Positions 1,137-9,846 of a stretch of DNA of 34,378 nt are shown in pieces (within the stretch, counting starts at the first letter, position 1; each line of letters starts with the position of its first letter). The notes below the pieces were generated by a model. The model saw only the letters and a program-made list of their open reading frames with translations. It was not told the DNA's origin and made no database searches. This DNA comes from Desulfobacteraceae bacterium CG2_30_51_40 (GTDB lineage Bacteria; Desulfobacterota; DSM-4660; Desulfatiglandales; Desulfatiglandaceae), in NCBI GenBank assembly GCA_001874005.1, contig MNYJ01000105.1, positions 1-34,378 of the forward strand, given 5' to 3'. A program made the translations under genes and the position numbers.

Positions 1137-2993
1137 TTATTTGTCCAGCACGTTAACGGGCCACCCTGATCCGATATCGTATTTCTCAAGCTCTTCTATT
1201 GAATTGATTGAAGCAAGTGCCGCCTTATGCTTCTCTGCGGCCCTGTTAGTTAGTGTCCATCCGGAAATGGCTATTTTCACCGATTTCGGCGTTGGGCTCA
1301 AATTTTAATCCTCGAAATACGTCTATGTATTCCTGTGGTTAAAATTATCGCCCGCCTTGAACTCGACGAAACTATCTCATTTCCGGATGGACACTAGTTA
1401 GATATATCCAGCCAGTAAGGGCCGTTTGGAGAAAAAACAATTCCTCTGAACTGAGAGCAATTTCCTTTTTATCGGATGATTGCATGGTAAATCCCTGCGG
1501 AAGAACTCCGCCCGGTACCATTGCACTCAACACAGCGGACATGATGTTCAGTCTGTTTTTATCGTCTATATCAAAACTCGCTCCCTTAAAAACCACCTTG
1601 CCTGAAAGGCGTTCACCACAAAGTGCATCTATCTCGTCAATCCTTCTAGCTCTTACCTCATCTGCTGTAATAAGAAGCTTTCTCACAACATTCATAAGCA
1701 GTTCAGGTTCAACAGGTTTTTCTAGAAATGCATCCGGCCTGGCGCTGATGAACCGTTCCAGCTCACTTCCTCCTGGAGCCTTACCTGTTCGGTCGTATCT
1801 CTGGCTATTACTGCAAGCGAAACCATCTGTCCCTGATCGTCAAGTATCGGGAACCGCACTGTGTGGAAGTGCCTCATTTTCCCAGGCCCTTCCCTGAGTC
1901 TTTCAGTGAAAGAGACCGTCTTGCTGCTCCTTAGTACCTCCCTGTCATGGGCCTCCATCTGACGAGCAAGCTTTTCGGGAAATAGCTCAAACTCCGTCTT
2001 ACCTACCGCGGACTCACGCATTACCCCCATTGAGGAAGCGGCCTCAGGATTGATATAGAGATATCTTCCCTCCAAATCCTTGATGCAGATTATGTCGTGG
2101 GCCGATTCAAGGAACTGTCTGAGTTTTTCCTCCGATTCCCTCAGTTCCCTTTCAAGAAGCACCCTGCGGGTTACATCCCTGATGCCTTCAATTATCTGGA
2201 TCACCTTCCCATCCTGGCCAAAGATGGGGGTGGCCATTATTTCCTCAAAGGAGGCGTTGCCGTCTTTCCCCTTATGGCTGTGTATGACAGTGCAGGTTGC
2301 GCCCTCATCAAAGACCTTCCTGAGCGGACAATCGCCTCCCTCTCCCAGGCACGGGCCGCCGATCCCGTGAGATATCTCAAAGCAACGCCTCCCAACAACC
2401 TCATTTTCCTCAAGGCCAGTTTCCTTGACAAACGTCCTGTTGACGGAGTGTATCGTATAATCCTGGTTCAAGACCATTATTCTATCCGGAAGGGAATCAA
2501 TAACCTTCTGGCACCAGTCCCGCTCCTTGGTGATAGATCTCTCTGCCTCCAGTTGAAGCTCTCGTTTTTCCTCCTCTATCTGGATAAGATCCCAGAGAAG
2601 TCTGGCCCCTCTATGATCAATAGAACTCACCTCAAGGGGTTTGGTACGGATCATCTTCTCCCTTACAGCCATGGAGTCGGTCAATTCTATAAGGAGGTTA
2701 AGCCCGGGAAGCTTGTAAAGTTCTATAAAATCCTTTGTGGTGAAGATGCCCATTTTTCGTGCCAAAACCATCCCCGGAGCATCGTCGCTTGGATCCGCCA
2801 CACCCAATATGTCAAGGTTCAGCCTGCTCTTTCTTTCTCCGCCCAGAAGCATGATCAGATTCTCACAGGCACTTCCTCCGCCCACTATAGCGGCCTTCAA
2901 AGCGACTCCCGACTGGGCCCCCCTCCTTATGATCCGCTCTCCGGCCTCTCCCCTATCCGGCCTTTGGCCTGAATCCTCTTGCTGATTATCCAT
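1137..2993 (-). pseudogene. Decayed sensor protein (Rossmann-PAS-PAS, receiver tail, DUF4376-like C-terminus)
   Basis: The first open frame (3008 or 2993 to 1722) encodes a Rossmann-like NAD-binding domain (LKAAIVGGGSACENL at 37-51), a PAS domain at about 165-285 with C209, C220 and C227-P-L, and a second PAS at about 295-415. It then leaves frame near 1750. A -1 frame change continues into a receiver-type tail (DAFLEKPVEPELL, about 1692-1730) and a DUF4376-like region. That region runs to 1395, is cut by the 142-bp element at 1253-1394, and resumes in the correct frame to end in YDIGSGWP and a TAA at 1137-1139. No HisKA or ATPase domain remains. GGAG about 7 nt before the ATG at 2993 favours that start over 3008. 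I infer an internal deletion that fused PAS2 to a receiver end, followed by the MITE insertion. The Rossmann-PAS part could still be expressed as a truncated signalling protein of about 423 aa. Confidence 0.75.
1253..1394. mobile_element. 142-bp MITE, copy 1 (inside the DUF4376-like gene)
   Basis: Perfect 17-bp terminal inverted repeats, GTGTCCATCCGGAAATG and its complement. The interior is itself imperfectly palindromic (AATTTTAATC..GGTTAAAATT). It is flanked by TAGTTA at 1247-1252 and 1395-1400, a 6-bp target duplication. Removing the element and one TAGTTA copy restores a continuous reading frame, which independently supports both the boundaries and the 6-bp duplication. It encodes nothing. 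Other copies are at 15600-15741 and 34170-34311. Confidence 0.9.
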
Positions 2994-3024
2994 CATCCTT
3001 CTCCGCATATTCCATCATCAAATC

Positions 3025-3213: not shown

Positions 3214-4206
3214 TCACTTTTCTTTCGAGCTTTCCTGCGGGAAGACCATCTTTCCGCAAATACCGAGATCGTATCCATCCAAGGTCAGCAAAAGTTCTCT
3301 GAAGCGTGCATCGTGTAAGACACCCATAAACAGTTGAACACCTTCATCAAAAAATCTCTCTCTTGTTATCAGCAGATCGAATCGTTCCCAGCGAAGCGGG
3401 ATGAAATCGAGGCCTAAAAGGGTTGCTGCAGCCTTTATTGCCAAACCTGCGTCAACTCGACCGGCTATAATCTCCATTCCGACATCAACATGCCTCTGCA
3501 CTTCCCTGCCATAGCCATTTATCCGGTCGCCGGCTAAGCCCAGCTTTAAAAGTTCCTGATCGAGAAGGAGCCTGGTACCCGTTCCAACGGACCGGTTGAC
3601 TATAGTTACATCCTCTCTGGCAAGGTCTTTTATTCCTGTTATGGTCTTGGGATTCCCTCTGGCTATCAGCAGACCCTGCTCGCGCATGCAGAAATTGACA
3701 ATGGCCGGCAAATGACCTAGCTCATTTTCCGCAAACCTGAAATTGTATTCACCACCGCCCGCCTCCATAAGGTGGCTGGAAGCAATATGGCAAAAACCCC
3801 TTCTGAGTGCCCGAATGCCGCCCATGCTTCCCAGGTTTCCGAAGACTGCCACGTTCTCCGGGTAGATCTTATTGAACAGGGCAATAGTCTTATCCAGGAG
3901 GATATCGTTGCTTCCGCACACAATCAAGAGACCGTGATAAGGCGGAAGAGGATTCCCCTCCTTTGGATAGTTGATGGTTTCATTTTCCAGCCACTGCTTC
4001 ACGAGTCTGGTTGGAAAAAGCCACTTGCCTGTGACCTTTGTCGCTGGGAGTCCCTTTTCGGCTATAAGCGCGTAAATCATCTTTTCATTGAGATCGAGAA
4101 ACTCGGCGATCTCTCTGGTATTCATGAACTCCTTTTTCTCTCCGCCCTGGATCAAATGGTCCGGAGCCTCGTTGGGCAATGTTTCCTTCCTGCCCCCCTT
4201 TTTCAT
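3214..4206 (-). CDS. Excisionase-type HTH plus periplasmic-binding-fold transcriptional regulator
   Basis: 330 aa from the chosen start. Residues about 28-73 form an excisionase/MerR-like HTH (MNTREIAEFLDLNEKMIYALIAE, then GKWLFPTRLVKQWL). Residues about 91-325 are a substrate-binding-protein-like domain of the PF12727 kind, with SSHLMEAGGGEYN and VNRSVGTGTRLLLDQ. One-component regulators of this design typically sense small ligands, often oxyanions such as molybdate or tungstate; that ligand is inferred here from tupA on the same strand 540 bp upstream. The frame is open to an ATG at 4287, but the ATG at 4206 has GGAGGAGG about 5 nt upstream and is preferred. A third ATG just before the HTH (4125) has AAGGAG too close. 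Cytoplasmic, no signal peptide. It may autoregulate or control the tupA operon. Confidence 0.82.
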   Translation of the reverse strand: MKKGGRKETLPNEAPDHLIQGGEKKEFMNTREIAEFLDLNEKMIYALIAEKGLPATKVTGKWLFPTRLVKQWLENETINYPKEGNPLPPYHGLLIVCGSNDILLDKTIALFNKIYPENVAVFGNLGSMGGIRALRRGFCHIASSHLMEAGGGEYNFRFAENELGHLPAIVNFCMREQGLLIARGNPKTITGIKDLAREDVTIVNRSVGTGTRLLLDQELLKLGLAGDRINGYGREVQRHVDVGMEIIAGRVDAGLAIKAAATLLGLDFIPLRWERFDLLITRERFFDEGVQLFMGVLHDARFRELLLTLDGYDLGICGKMVFPQESSKEK

Positions 4207-4336
4207 AAGCCCTCCTCCAGGTTGCATGTTTATGCCGACAGAAAAGCCACAATCCATATCCGGGAAGCGTAACCTCTTTTCTAGCATGATACTATAAGTT
4301 ACAGGCGAATGAAACTACATGGAACAATGCTGTCGC

Positions 4337-4575
4337 CGTCGTTGTGCCCCTTTCAGGGCATGGCGGTTTATATGAAAATGCCCCTTCGCTTCACTCCTCC
4401 CGCTCGACATGTGAGGGTGGGGTGGGGATGATTTTCATGTTTCGTTGTTCCTTAACAGGGCATGGGGGTTTATATGAAAATGTTCCCTTCCTTTAATCCC
4501 TCCCCCTCGACGGGGGAGGGAGGGGTGGGGGTGATTTTCATGCTTCGTTGTGCCCCTTTCAGGGCATGGCGGCTA
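4337..4575. repeat. Mosaic intergenic repeat array, alternating hairpin and G-rich modules
   Basis: Five modules alternate. TGCCCCTTTCAGGGCA hairpins lie at 4345-4360 and 4551-4566, with a degenerate one near 4446-4464. G/C-rich modules lie at about 4373-4440 and 4473-4540. ATGAAAAT or ATTTTCAT boxes mark every junction. G-runs of five, three, four and five, spaced by one base, lie at 4512-4531. This array makes up most of the 540-bp gap 4207-4746, which shows no gene. Confidence 0.75.
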
Positions 4576-4746: not shown

Positions 4747-5646
4747 TCACCTTTTGCTCGGCTCCGCGTCGGGGAAAAATGCCTGCTGACCCGATATCTT
4801 ATAGTCATTTATATACGATTGACCCTTGGGCGAGACAAGCCATTTAGCAAAACTGTCCGCCCATTCAAATCGCACATGCTTGTGCTTACCGAAACTCACC
4901 GGAATGACCCCGTAATAATTGAAAAGCCGCTCATCGCCCTGGCAGAGTATTTTCAGATCAAGCCCTAGGCCTTTTCCGAACTTGTGCTTGAGAAATGTTG
5001 CCCTGTCGGAGAGCGTGTAGGCCCGCTTTTCATCGGCAAAAAGGAGGGTTCTGCCCATACCCTGACCTATTGAAAAATACCATTCTCCTTCCGGGCTCTC
5101 AAATGATATTCCTCTCTTAACACCCATGATTGAAACCTCCAAGCTTCTTCGCTTCAAAGGAATGCCGGTGAGCCTCCAGAGTTCCTGCTCCTTGGAGTGA
5201 GTGCCGCTATCGTCTCCCCTGGAAACAAAGGGCGATTTACTACCCGCTATAAGCTTCATAGCGGCAACCGCATCCCTCGTTGCCTGTATGGCGGCAGGAT
5301 CTGACGGAGGTCCGAGCAATACAAAATCATTGTGCATTACTGAAAGCCTGTAGGCTCCGTAGCCCTCGGAAACAAAGCTCTCCTCACGTTTCCTGTCGTG
5401 AACTAATATGACATCAACATTGCCGTCCATTCCGTCCCTTATGGCAGCCCCTGTCCCCTTTGCAAGCACCCTGACTTCTATACCTGTGTCCCTCGTAAAA
5501 TGTGGTAGGATCACTGCCAAAAGCCCGGAATTTTCGGTACTTGTAGTTGTTGACATCAGGATATATTTCTTACCATCACCAAACGCTGAATGGCTCAGGC
5601 TCAGAAGACAGGCGATGACAATGGAGACAAAAATACGTTTCATCAT
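4747..5646 (-). CDS. tupA: Tungstate-type ABC transporter substrate-binding protein (TupA family)
   Basis: 299 aa with a signal peptide (residues 1-23, MMKRIFV..AFG). Family motifs are present: STTTSTENSGLL at 32-43, GTGAAIRDG..GNVDVILVH at 65-83 and SRGDDSGTH at 142-150, the oxyanion-contacting loops of TupA/WtpA-like proteins. Its role is periplasmic capture of tungstate, or possibly molybdate, for delivery to an ABC permease. No tupB or tupC homologue lies in the window, so the transporter partner must be elsewhere, or this copy acts alone as a sensor or scavenger. The ATG at 5646 follows AAGGGGG. The gene starts 18 nt after the stop of the diheme protein gene, so they are very likely co-transcribed with the porin gene. 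Family call firm; ligand specificity (W, Mo or another anion) inferred. Confidence 0.88.
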   Translation of the reverse strand: MMKRIFVSIVIACLLSLSHSAFGDGKKYILMSTTTSTENSGLLAVILPHFTRDTGIEVRVLAKGTGAAIRDGMDGNVDVILVHDRKREESFVSEGYGAYRLSVMHNDFVLLGPPSDPAAIQATRDAVAAMKLIAGSKSPFVSRGDDSGTHSKEQELWRLTGIPLKRRSLEVSIMGVKRGISFESPEGEWYFSIGQGMGRTLLFADEKRAYTLSDRATFLKHKFGKGLGLDLKILCQGDERLFNYYGVIPVSFGKHKHVRFEWADSFAKWLVSPKGQSYINDYKISGQQAFFPDAEPSKR

Positions 5647-5664
5647 AAAGGCCCCCTTGAGGAA

Positions 5665-7674
5665 TCATGCCCCTTGTTTTTCCCTCAAACGATATACACC
5701 AAAACCTGCCGCAAACGCCAATAAGGCAAGTAAGGCAAGGGATGATGCTATCCCGAAGTGAAGAGCGAACCAACTGAGTCCTACCACTGGAACAAGGGTT
5801 ACCCGCACAACAGGCTTCATCCAGGCGTGATCATCTATGAAACGGGCCATGGGGGGTGAGAACCTGTAATATGCATCAACGAAGGCTTCACCCAGACTGT
5901 TGCCCTTCATATGGGAATCGCGAAACTCCCTCAGTATGACCACTTCCGGGGCGCTGAAATCACCGTATGCTGCAGTGGCTATAAAGCATCCTCCGCCTCC
6001 CCCTCCGCTTTCCCCTGAAGCTGACGAGGTCGTTGTGGCGATTGCCCCGGGATCATGGATGGCGCCATCTTTGACTCCATCAGAATCCGTCGCCGGATCA
6101 CCGTCGGTTAGAGTGATTGTAATTGTGTCGTCTCCATCATTGCTCCCGAAAGGAATCACGCTCCAACCTCTTGCAGGATCAACCTTGTAATACTTGGAAT
6201 CAGTTGGGACGTTCCCAGGATACCTCATTGTCACCGTTACACTGGCGCCGGGGGTGATCCCAACAATGTCGAACTTCGTGGTACCGAATGGAAAGGTGGC
6301 AGAAGGTTTTCCGTCCTGCGGCAAGGCAGGATCGTCATGATTTAGTGTCCGAACATTAGCCAATTGGCCCGCGTTCGCGTTGATGAGGATCAGGGAGCCT
6401 CCATTAGCCTGTCTCACCTTTGCAGTGTCAGGGTCTTGGAAATCGGGAATACCGTCCCCGTCGAAATCTTCCGTCGCGTCTGTGCCCTCTTCGCTGTCCA
6501 GAACCCCGTTTCCATTTGAGTCGCTGCCTTCAATGGAACCGTAAACTATTATTTTTCCCTGATCCACATAGGCCCAGCCAACCTCCAGAAGATCAATATC
6601 TGTGGTGCCGGAAGGAAGCGGCTGTACCTTTATAGCCGTGACAGTTCTGCTTGCCGCGCCCGCGTTGTGATCCCAATCGAAGTTGTAAGGCCATATTACA
6701 TTCTGGTTCGTTGACTTGCTCGACTGGTCGGGCGCGTTGGGAGATTTCTGTGGCGGGACCACTCGGAAAGGACCCTCACCGTCAAGCTTATTGTCCTGGT
6801 TCAAAACGCCGGGATCCATACCCTGTCCTTCACGAGCATAAGCAAGGATCATCTTCAGCCCGCCTGGAACAGCTATGGAATCGAGGTGTTTTCTGCCTTT
6901 ACAGCTTGGCGCGCTGTAATCACACCATCCGTCAACCGTGTTAACCGCAATATCGGCCTGGGTATCATAATAATAAACCGCTGAAGGATAAATACCCTTT
7001 ACGTAATAGAGTTCAGGATCAGGATCCGAATCAAGAGGGTGATACTGAGCCCAGCCGTCGGGCGCGTATACAAGGATGCCTGTGGCACTTGAAAGGATAC
7101 CGGCATCTGCCAGCAGAACCTCCATCGGAACCCCCGTATATTCCGCATAAAAGTCCCCGGAACGCGAAGTGTTCATAAGAAGAAACTGTGTGTGTTTACC
7201 CAGGGCCTGGAGCTGCGCCTTGGTATAGATCCTTGAAGGGGCAACCACCTTTGACGGATCATCACCGGCATCGCCCGGGAACCTTACTGCCTCTATCTCC
7301 TGGATATTCGTATAACCATCGCCGTCAGAGTCTATAGCCTCTATGGCCTTGACAGCCGACGCATTGCGGCCGTTGTCATGATAGTCCTTACCGTATTGAT
7401 TCATTGTTTCGAGGATATTTCCGCTTCCGTCATAGCCATATTTGTAGTGACACCATTGGCAGCTCCCCAATGTGGTAGTTTTGCCTTTGCTTTCATATGA
7501 TCCGCCGCTGTGGCACAGGGCGCAGTGATCAAGCTTTGTTCCCGACTTGGCGGGGTAAGTCGCGGTGAAGTTCTTCGAATCGTTTTCTCCCTCATGATGA
7601 TACGCAGAAAAGGCCTGAGATACCAGGCAAAATGAAATAAACAAAGAAAATCCGCATAACAGAATCTTTTTCAC
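5665..7674 (-). CDS. Secreted GEGP-type diheme cytochrome with Ca-binding repeats and CFI-box C-terminus
   Basis: 669 aa. Signal peptide 1-24. Two CXXCH heme-c sites, CALCH (51-55) and CQWCH (72-76). EF-hand/thrombospondin-3-like calcium loops DSDGDGYTN (115-123), DSNGNGVLD (385-393) and DFDGDGIPD (403-411). Residues about 150-380 contain YTGVPMEVLLADAGI, GEGPFRVVPPQ (299-309) and DWDHNAG, matching the family I recall as GEGP motif-containing diheme proteins; this region resembles a SUOX-like molybdopterin-binding fold. A choice-of-anchor-U-like domain spans about 465-545. A CFI-box follows (CFIATAAYG at 563-571), then a hydrophobic helix (about 640-660) and a basic tail (RLREKQGA), a sorting-type end. 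It is probably displayed outside the cytoplasmic membrane. Its position between a porin and a TupA-like protein suggests a link to Mo/W chemistry, which is inference. Substrate unknown. Confidence 0.83.
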   Translation of the reverse strand: MKKILLCGFSLFISFCLVSQAFSAYHHEGENDSKNFTATYPAKSGTKLDHCALCHSGGSYESKGKTTTLGSCQWCHYKYGYDGSGNILETMNQYGKDYHDNGRNASAVKAIEAIDSDGDGYTNIQEIEAVRFPGDAGDDPSKVVAPSRIYTKAQLQALGKHTQFLLMNTSRSGDFYAEYTGVPMEVLLADAGILSSATGILVYAPDGWAQYHPLDSDPDPELYYVKGIYPSAVYYYDTQADIAVNTVDGWCDYSAPSCKGRKHLDSIAVPGGLKMILAYAREGQGMDPGVLNQDNKLDGEGPFRVVPPQKSPNAPDQSSKSTNQNVIWPYNFDWDHNAGAASRTVTAIKVQPLPSGTTDIDLLEVGWAYVDQGKIIVYGSIEGSDSNGNGVLDSEEGTDATEDFDGDGIPDFQDPDTAKVRQANGGSLILINANAGQLANVRTLNHDDPALPQDGKPSATFPFGTTKFDIVGITPGASVTVTMRYPGNVPTDSKYYKVDPARGWSVIPFGSNDGDDTITITLTDGDPATDSDGVKDGAIHDPGAIATTTSSASGESGGGGGGCFIATAAYGDFSAPEVVILREFRDSHMKGNSLGEAFVDAYYRFSPPMARFIDDHAWMKPVVRVTLVPVVGLSWFALHFGIASSLALLALLAFAAGFGVYRLREKQGA

Positions 7675-7703
7675 AGTTTTCCTCCTTTTTAACCTTATTT
7701 TTA

Positions 7704-9290
7704 TTAGAATCCCATCTGAAATCTTGCAGTTATAACATCTTCCCTATCGCTGTAAATCGCAGTACCGCTAAGCGGATCACGAGCAATAAGAAGAGGTTTG
7801 TCGAATTCGGTTCTGGTGAAGTCCACTATGAACTTCACATACCTGCTCAAGAACCAGTTGACGGCGACGCTGTAAGCCTCCGCTCTTCTAACCGAATTGC
7901 CTTCCCTTATGAGATAGTCATAGACTGACTCCTCCGCCTCAAAAAGGTCGTATCGTACCGCAAGGCCAAGACCTCCCCATCCTCCTTCCCACAAGCTCTT
8001 TCGAGGAATAACCGGAAGGATTCTGCCTCCAGCCAATTCAGGCTCCTCACCTGTCAGCATCCAGAGGAGGGCTCCATAATAGTCTTCCATGCCGGCATCA
8101 AACCTCTCGGCGCTGGTGGCAATTCCCTCGAAATCCATCTTTGTGTATTCCCCATAGATCAGAAGAGGGCCATACGCCCATCCCATCTCAACGACATAAC
8201 GCGAACGCGAGTCAGCATCACGGATTATGTTAAACTTTGCGGCTGAAGCGACATCAAAAAAGCTTGTCAGGCCGGAAGTTTTGACATTAACCTGGACATT
8301 TGAGGCATCAACTTCCGCATAGGACGCAGACATACCAAAGTGCAGGTTCTCCAGCGGTCTGAAGCCAATCTCCTTGAATGGTGACAAACCGATCCTCCCG
8401 GTCAATTCAGGAGAGTCACTGTTGCCTCCGGTCGAGTCATCAGTACCATCCCCGTTAAATACTCCGACGGCGTAATAAGCGCGATTTTTGAGAAAGGCTC
8501 CGTGGAGCATCGCACCGAGGTCCCTTTGCGGGGTGAGATAATAACCCATTGACCTCTCGGCGAAGGGAACTACCTCGTCATCCGATACATGCTCCAGGCC
8601 GAACGGTTCTTTGAACTGCCCGATCCTGAATGAGGCAAAGGGAAGGATGGCAGATTCAAGATATGCATCCATAAGCCTGCGGCTTCCAGCTCCCTGGAAC
8701 TCGTATTCGAATTTGTATGCGAACCTTTTAAGGAGGTTACCGGATAGCGCAAGACGAACCCTGCGCAGGTCGAATTCGTTCTTTTGCGGATCTCCTTCAT
8801 CGTAGTCAAAATAACGATAGTCAGCCTGCAGGAAGGAGTTAAAACAAAGCGACAAGTCTTCCTTGTCCTCCGAGCCCAGGCAGAATCCATCGTCATAATA
8901 CGCCGACAAAGGTCTCTCGGTTCTATTCCTGTCTTCCAATATCGTTGCTTTCTCAGATGGCGAAGTGCCCCCTCCGCCGGCCGAACCAAGGGAAGAACCG
9001 CCTGAGCCTTGTGATGCCATGAGTGCCCTCTCCTTTTCTTCAAGAAAGCGCTCCTTCTCCTCAAGTGCCCTGTGAACCCTTGCCAGTTCTTTTCTCTCTT
9101 CGGCAAGAACAGCCCGCAGAGCATCTGCCTCCTGAGCGGTAAGGGTGCCTTTCCTCTGAAACAGGATGAGCAGTTCCTCCATGGCGCTTGTCTGGCCAAA
9201 ACATGGCAAAAGGGCTCCCGTCAGTCCATAACAAATAAGAATCAGCATAAAAAAAGCGATCTTAAAACCTCGTCCAACTTCGTTTTTCAT
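7704..9290 (-). CDS. Phosphate-selective porin OprO/OprP family protein
   Basis: 528 aa. The N-terminal hydrophobic segment (about 10-32) is a signal peptide. A coiled coil rich in E/K/R lies at about 55-95 (LAEERKELARVHRALEEKE), followed by a Gly/Ser linker and then a beta-barrel region of the OprO/P family (PF07396). Visible traits are FLQADYRYFDYD, FDLRRVRLALSGNLLKRFAYK, RIGQFKEPFGLE and the terminal ARFQMGF, whose final Phe is the usual outer-membrane assembly signal. Such porins pass small anions across the outer membrane; phosphate is the classic substrate, but oxyanions in general fit the TupA-like neighbour. First gene of a tight three-gene operon (29 nt to the next). An ATG at 9290 is used. 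A run of TTTATAGTC boxes lies upstream. Confidence 0.87.
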   Translation of the reverse strand: MKNEVGRGFKIAFFMLILICYGLTGALLPCFGQTSAMEELLILFQRKGTLTAQEADALRAVLAEERKELARVHRALEEKERFLEEKERALMASQGSGGSSLGSAGGGGTSPSEKATILEDRNRTERPLSAYYDDGFCLGSEDKEDLSLCFNSFLQADYRYFDYDEGDPQKNEFDLRRVRLALSGNLLKRFAYKFEYEFQGAGSRRLMDAYLESAILPFASFRIGQFKEPFGLEHVSDDEVVPFAERSMGYYLTPQRDLGAMLHGAFLKNRAYYAVGVFNGDGTDDSTGGNSDSPELTGRIGLSPFKEIGFRPLENLHFGMSASYAEVDASNVQVNVKTSGLTSFFDVASAAKFNIIRDADSRSRYVVEMGWAYGPLLIYGEYTKMDFEGIATSAERFDAGMEDYYGALLWMLTGEEPELAGGRILPVIPRKSLWEGGWGGLGLAVRYDLFEAEESVYDYLIREGNSVRRAEAYSVAVNWFLSRYVKFIVDFTRTEFDKPLLIARDPLSGTAIYSDREDVITARFQMGF

Positions 9291-9323: not shown

Positions 9324-9430
9324 TTTATAGTCAGTAACGGTAATTCAAGGGTTTTTTATAGTCAATATTTTTTTATAGTCTATTAATTGTTTCTGATATA
9401 GCCTTTTATAAAACTATTAATAACTATAAA
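9324..9430 (-). promoter_or_regulatory. AT-rich operator/promoter region with repeated TTTATAGTC boxes
   Basis: TTTATAGTC occurs at 9324-9332, 9355-9363 and 9372-9380. An inverted ACTATAAA lies at 9423-9430 and a TTTTATAAAA palindrome near 9404-9413. On the minus strand TAGACT, 16 nt, TATAAA could serve as -35 and -10 for the porin operon. The repeat spacings (31 and 17) suggest cooperative binding by a regulator; the HTH-PBP protein at 3214-4206 is the obvious candidate, but this is inference. Confidence 0.45.
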
Positions 9431-9587
9431 TAACAACCATGATCCACCGGAATTTCGCACTGAAAACCTTAGGAATGAATTTGAGGAAAAGGCAGGCTAT
9501 AAAAGCCGGCGGAGTAGTTCAAACGGCAGCACAATTCCTATCCGGGGTGACAAGGACAACCGGATGGATATCAGAGTCTATATGAAA

Positions 9588-9846
9588 ATGGATCATCATA
9601 CCGGCGCGGTCCGTTATGCAGACTTTTACACTTGGATTCGGATTAAGTCCGGAATGACAGGTTAGATTTTCATCCTTCTTTGTGCCCTATCCGGGCATGG
9701 CGTTTTATATGAAAATGTCCCTTCCCTATATCCCTCCCCCTTTACCGTCGAAACGTCGGGATGCGGCGGCATTATTCCCTCCCCCTCGAATGGGGAGGGA
9801 GGGGTGGGGGTGATTTTCATCCTTCGTTGTGCCCCATTCGGGCATG
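9588..9846. repeat. Mosaic intergenic repeat array
   Basis: Boxes ATGAAAAT/ATTTTCAT delimit several modules: a degenerate GGATTCGGATTAAGTCCGGAATGAC unit, TGCCC hairpins at 9683-9697 and 9830-9844, and a G/C-rich unit whose G-runs (four, three, four, five) lie at 9792-9810. A palindromic insert CCGTCGAAACGTCGGGATGCGGCGG sits within the G/C-rich unit near 9740-9765. The preceding 9431-9587 shows nothing recognisable. Confidence 0.7.

Follow-up and report, generated by a model that had tools for sequence, protein, structure and literature searches.

The window, a stretch of 34,378 nucleotides from Desulfobacteraceae bacterium CG2_30_51_40, makes up all of contig C108; the draft genome has a size of 3.44 Mb and is 97% complete. 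Three minus-strand genes lie there in the order porin, GEGP diheme protein and TupA-like protein, and the ORF coordinates gave gaps of 29 and 18 nt between them, as had been predicted. The original prediction had also named an OprO/P-type porin, a GEGP diheme protein and a tungstate-type binding protein, and these assignments were borne out by the family profile matches. A regulator with an HTH and a binding fold, expected downstream, is indeed located beyond tupA, at a spacing of 459 nt, and therefore need not be in the same operon. The features are as follows.

9413..9434, minus strand: candidate operator, a tandem 10-bp direct repeat, GTTATTTATA-GTTATTAATA-GT, ~125–145 nt upstream of the porin start
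7704..9290, minus strand: OprO/OprP-type porin, the first gene of the operon, 528 aa (PF07396)
5665..7674, minus strand: GEGP diheme protein, 669 aa (NF041762)
7510..7524, minus strand: heme c site 1 of the GEGP protein, CALCH, residues 51–55, invariant in 49 of 49 aligned domains
7447..7461, minus strand: heme c site 2, CQWCH, residues 72–76, likewise invariant (49/49)
7297..7332, minus strand: EF-hand-like loop, DSDGDGYTNIQE, residues 115–126, with D115, D117, D119 and E126 invariant
6616..7245, minus strand: SUOX/PruR-fold domain with the GEGP motif, residues 144–353, no conserved Cys
6037..6309, minus strand: choice-of-anchor U domain, residues 456–546 (NF041766, 101 bits)
5782..5988, minus strand: CFI-box-CTERM domain, residues 563–631 (NF041770, 94 bits)
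4747..5646, minus strand: TupA, a tungstate-binding protein by family assignment, 299 aa (NF041772)
3214..4287, minus strand: TaoR-type regulator (HTH_17 and PBP_like PF12727)

The porin matches Porin_O_P (PF07396) with 110 bits, and no other match to this family was found in the genome. Like the OprO/OprP anion porins it belongs to this family, and its sequence matches the Porin O structure 4rjw over positions 138–498 (E 1.5e-14); it differs from them by the low similarity and by an additional coiled stretch at the N-terminus. Against the NCBIfam model of ExtI, which is associated with selenite and tellurite, it scores 28 bits, under the cut-off of 150. Our literature search found no text on a porin for tungstate. 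Separately, three exact copies of GACTATAAA occur on the minus strand shortly upstream of the porin (9324–9332, 9355–9363 and 9372–9380), which is far over chance; this triple repeat was not found in the promoters of relatives.

The TupA of the window scores 209 bits against NF041772, whose equivalog cut-off is 400. Since this cut-off is reached by none of the 395 genomes of the phylum, the shortfall is uninformative, and a reading of the low score as that of a non-Tup protein was rejected. The oxyanion-site residues proposed for the TupA of D. alaskensis, namely TTTS, H59, R118, T124 and D170 (PMC5517513), are all retained, as T33–T35, S36, H83, R143, T149 and D214, respectively. The profile search of the genome found this gene to be its sole tupA. 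The sole tupB is located on contig C53 (NF041773, 210 bits), where a tupC-like ABC ATPase gene overlaps it from behind, and no tupA accompanies the two there. Neither tupB nor tupC occurs within the window, no ModA was found in the genome, and no ModB exceeded the cut-off. Thus, the predicted lack of tupB and tupC holds for the window and the operon, while a missing permease has to be rejected at the level of the genome: the statement is true of the operon and false of the cell. Seven matches to AFOR_N, of the AOR family, point to a wide use of tungsten-type aldehyde oxidoreductases in this organism.

The simplest reading is that of one transporter whose binding protein was relocated to the porin operon, although the missing 3% of the genome could contain another tupA, or one next to tupBC. 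The same separation, in which the single tupA adjoins GEGP and a different contig carries tupB, was found in at least six other genomes (G333, G395 (SURF_67), G402, G406, G085 and G011), nearly all of the compared genomes being drafts, mostly MAGs. When tupA lies away from GEGP, it usually adjoins tupB (e.g., in G252, G036, G389, G408, G410 and G411), and a complete TupABC is encoded at five GEGP loci (L047, L050, L051, L059 and L103). The window thus shares with the TupABC importer the proposed oxyanion-site residues, TupB and a TupC-like ATPase, and differs from it in that tupA stands apart from tupBC, behind the porin and diheme genes. A comparable arrangement is known from Geobacter bemidjiensis, in which modB1C1 is located away from modA1 (PMC2996986). 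There too the binding protein is separated from the permease and the ATPase; that system, however, concerns molybdate, and no porin or diheme partner was described for it. Because tupA is detachable from tupBC, a scan that looks for intact tupABC operons would assess genomes of this kind wrongly.

The neighbourhood of GEGP genes was compared across genomes, and the gene trio was found to recur. The NF041762 profile exceeded its cut-off in 22 of the 395 genomes of the phylum; a named collection, whose genomes partly overlap that set, provided 77 GEGP loci (about 75 distinct), mostly from Desulfobacterota with some from other phyla. Two culturable relatives, Desulfatibacillum alkenivorans DSM 16219 and Desulfosarcina cetonica, also have GEGP. 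GEGP is constantly accompanied by a porin gene of the same orientation, most often the gene just upstream of it (40 of 66 scorable loci). These two, the porin and the GEGP diheme gene, form the core of the set. Within 8 kb and on the same strand, TupA or ModA was present at 20 of 54 scorable loci and absent from 34. Approximately one-third of the 75 distinct loci carry TupA or ModA, roughly 70 times the chance level; based on a density of ~26 TupA genes in 87 Mb, the 1.29 Mb of GEGP loci should contain ~0.4, and more than 25 were found. On the GEGP tree, the TupA/ModA label changes 14 times, 11 of these changes being forced by well-supported branches, so these genes were joined or lost at least 11–14 times. 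In Desulfobacteraceae SURF_67 (L052), the nearest relative, the porin, GEGP, TupA, regulator and Rid genes follow one another as in the window. In the first set, the GEGP genomes devoid of TupA are G160 and G349, and both have ModA behind GEGP, with ModB and an ABC ATPase in addition at the G160 locus. A MoaE gene is placed between GEGP and two tupA-like genes in a Pelobacter MAG, and an FmdE gene follows GEGP in another locus.

The regulator matches PF12727 (PBP_like) with 212 bits and the excisionase-type HTH_17 with 38 bits; translation probably begins further downstream than the listed ATG. The AlphaFold2 model of this protein, made from 7 sequences, has a pLDDT of 44, and no inference was drawn from it. 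According to two papers (PMC11980592, PMC10102598), TaoR is a characterised regulator of the tungsten aldehyde oxidoreductase with the canonical architecture of HTH_17 and a PBP-like domain, and the family is described for tungstoenzymes and for molybdate/tungstate transport. The window regulator has this architecture and tup genes alongside, and it is distinguished by its neighbourhood to porin-GEGP-tupA. Regulators of this architecture adjoin tupA in the window and in L042, L052 and L074, and also, where GEGP is lacking, in L134, L136, L170 and L171. The TaoR link may already be contained in the 2019 regulon paper (Rajeev et al.).

The candidate operator upstream of the porin contains two overlapping matches to GTTATTNNTAGT, a form that did not occur in shuffled sequences. 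Repeats of this type also precede porin, GEGP, regulator and tupA genes of relatives. The upstream regions of porin, GEGP, regulator and TupA/ModA genes, 54.6 kb altogether, contain the general form, GTnATTnnnnGTnATT, 14 times, against 6 times in 1.23 Mb elsewhere. This 53-fold enrichment is partly circular, since the form was first noticed by eye in some of the counted promoters and was then counted against the remaining DNA and against separately fetched tup loci. The repeat was absent from 130 kb of other intergenic DNA. Independent occurrences were found at L044, L055, L065, L092, L116 and L120, and at the tupA promoter of stand-alone tupABC (G389; L146, L164); among the separately fetched tup loci, the repeat precedes a stand-alone tupABC and a tupA. 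The genome's own tupBC promoter showed no clear copy, and an unguided Gibbs motif search returned GC-rich noise only.

The GEGP protein matches the NF041762 diheme_GEGP profile over its full length with 448 bits (cut-off 300). In the alignment of 49 GEGP domains, H27, C51, C54, H55, C72, C75 and H76 are invariant and H336 is nearly so, and judging from this conservation H27 and H336 could serve as the far heme ligands. AlphaFold2 modelled residues 1–399 with a pLDDT of 90. The predicted SUOX-like region was recovered in this model: by fold comparison, residues 144–353 resemble PruR (7kom; Z 11.3, 2.4 Å over 122 residues) and sulfite dehydrogenase (2blf; Z 10.8). Sequence searches of this region against the PDB gave nothing usable, and Foldseek alone yielded no match of the model under E 0.001; the fold comparison alone succeeded, so the SUOX-fold assignment rests on the aligned fold, which is common to every high-scoring match. 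NCBIfam names the family by its motif only, and our literature search found no text on a GEGP motif; the Mo/W context, the PruR-like fold and the EF-hand-like loop are new here.

The C-terminal ends of these proteins vary. In the window protein, the CFI-box-CTERM domain is followed by a hydrophobic stretch and then by a basic tail, and a long hydrophobic tail is also seen in L052, whereas many other GEGP proteins (L034, L038, L042, L053–L056, L059, L065, L066, L074, L080 and L082) finish at a bare CFI that only a few residues follow, and they have no membrane segment. Such a CFI tail may itself act as a sorting mark.

Taking these results together, we consider it probable that the operon encodes the initial part, in the outer membrane and periplasm, of an uptake route for tungstate, and possibly molybdate, that is regulated by the TaoR-type protein and in which TupA works in trans with TupBC. 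The computation itself establishes the gene identities, their recurrence, the separation of tupA from tupBC, the architecture of the regulator, the shared promoter repeat and the fold; the transport direction, the ligand, the regulation and the part played by GEGP are what we infer, as follows. The oxyanion would cross the outer membrane through the OprO/P-type porin, and TupA would capture it in the periplasm and pass it to the TupBC encoded on C53. The TaoR-type regulator would act at the tandem GTnATT repeat and tune expression according to how much tungsten is available. Sec would export the GEGP protein in an unfolded state. This protein has two sites for c-type heme, a calcium-type loop and, as in PruR, a SUOX fold that lacks a metal-ligating cysteine; rather than an Mo/W enzyme, it is most likely an accessory protein with a redox or pterin-linked part in uptake or sensing. 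For uptake it may reduce something, sense, hold a pterin or assist the porin. The original prediction of an oxyanion module stands in that the porin, TupA and the PBP-type regulator recur and are linked to W/Mo, and it can be narrowed to tungstate/molybdate uptake; its suggestion that the module provides the diheme protein with Mo/W is not supported, as the SUOX-fold domain has no conserved Mo-ligating Cys and the leader is not Tat-like.

The porin and GEGP might instead belong to a redox or anion system of their own, e.g., for phosphate, selenite or another oxyanion, with TupA merely co-regulated. Many loci have the porin and GEGP with no TupA/ModA in the vicinity (34 of 54 scored loci lack TupA/ModA), and there the pair could serve another anion. 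The porin's clear match to OprO and its weak one to ExtI, known from selenite/tellurite operons, point in the same direction, although the ExtI score is far from its cut-off. Against such a system, TupA, ModA, MoaE, FmdE and TaoR-type regulators were independently joined to the porin-GEGP pair, and the promoter repeat is common to tupA and tupABC promoters. We regard a separate system as unlikely. Also unlikely is a particular reading in which the porin and GEGP constitute a new outer-membrane step of W/Mo acquisition and the redox chemistry of GEGP, for example, frees W/Mo from a pterin or sulfur complex for TupA/ModA.

The comparison with PruR bears on two further explanations. PruR is a periplasmic pterin receptor that binds small pterins, has no Mo-binding cysteine and is regarded as free of Moco; its usual partner is DcpA or DTB (PMC13259868). 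GEGP shares with it an exported or periplasmic SUOX fold devoid of an Mo-ligating cysteine and differs by the diheme domain, by insertions and by the anchor domains. By this likeness, and by its position next to W/Mo uptake genes, GEGP might be a periplasmic sensor whose hemes report the redox state and whose PruR-like domain reports a pterin, thereby informing W/Mo regulation. However, no DcpA or DTB regulator was found in the operon neighbourhood, the regulator at the locus is a cytoplasmic HTH-PBP protein, and no signalling protein is constantly adjacent to GEGP, which makes a sensor quite improbable.

In Moco enzymes of the SUOX fold, the cofactor is loaded in the cytoplasm and the folded protein is exported by Tat. 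GEGP has the fold of the sulfite oxidase-family enzymes in common, but no cysteine outside the heme motifs is conserved among the 49 aligned domains (C251 in 36/49, C258 in 28/49), a verdict on the Mo ligand that comes from sequence conservation. The twin arginine is absent from the leader of the window protein, MKKILLCGFSLFISF, which is of the Sec type; a lipobox is apparently present in some relatives. The lack of a conserved Mo-ligating Cys and the Sec-type leader make GEGP unlikely to be an Mo/W enzyme, and it is probably not one supplied by TupA. That GEGP is itself a W/Mo-pterin enzyme fed by TupA and the porin is thus highly improbable, even though its best structural matches are PruR and the sulfite dehydrogenases and its pair of hemes could transfer electrons in the manner of sulfite dehydrogenase, because PruR, the best of these matches, is regarded as Moco-free and TupA supplies a cytoplasmic importer, not a periplasmic enzyme.

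In the preferred reading, uptake through a porin operon with TupA in trans, the locus would name a porin and a heme protein for the passage of tungstate/molybdate across the outer membrane. The literature searched gave no account of this passage, and the systems studied so far begin at TupA or ModA. New here are the proposal that Tup uptake can start from an outer-membrane and heme module, with tupA detached, and the association of GEGP with metal uptake in many Desulfobacterota.

Several minor observations were also made. In one clade, a conserved protein of ~130 aa, to which no Pfam or NCBIfam family matches, is encoded between GEGP and TupA (L041 10840–11232, L046 10819–11226, L048 3960–4355 and L049 289–711). 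In the tandem tupA-like pairs of L101 (12067–12921) and L111 (2950–3840), the first copy is devoid of the TTTS and SRGDxSGT motifs and possibly has a second specificity. Between tupA and the regulator of the window, a 24-nt repeat, CATGCCCTGAAAGGGGCACAACGA, occurs in two exact minus-strand copies (4339–4362 and 4545–4568), and what seems to be a diverged copy lies near 9660–9700. Finally, the minus-strand gene at 1722–3008 encodes a Rossmann-like and double-PAS protein that stops short of a kinase domain, while its homologue in L092 (5931–7397) goes on to a histidine-kinase ATPase domain; the gene in the window is possibly truncated.
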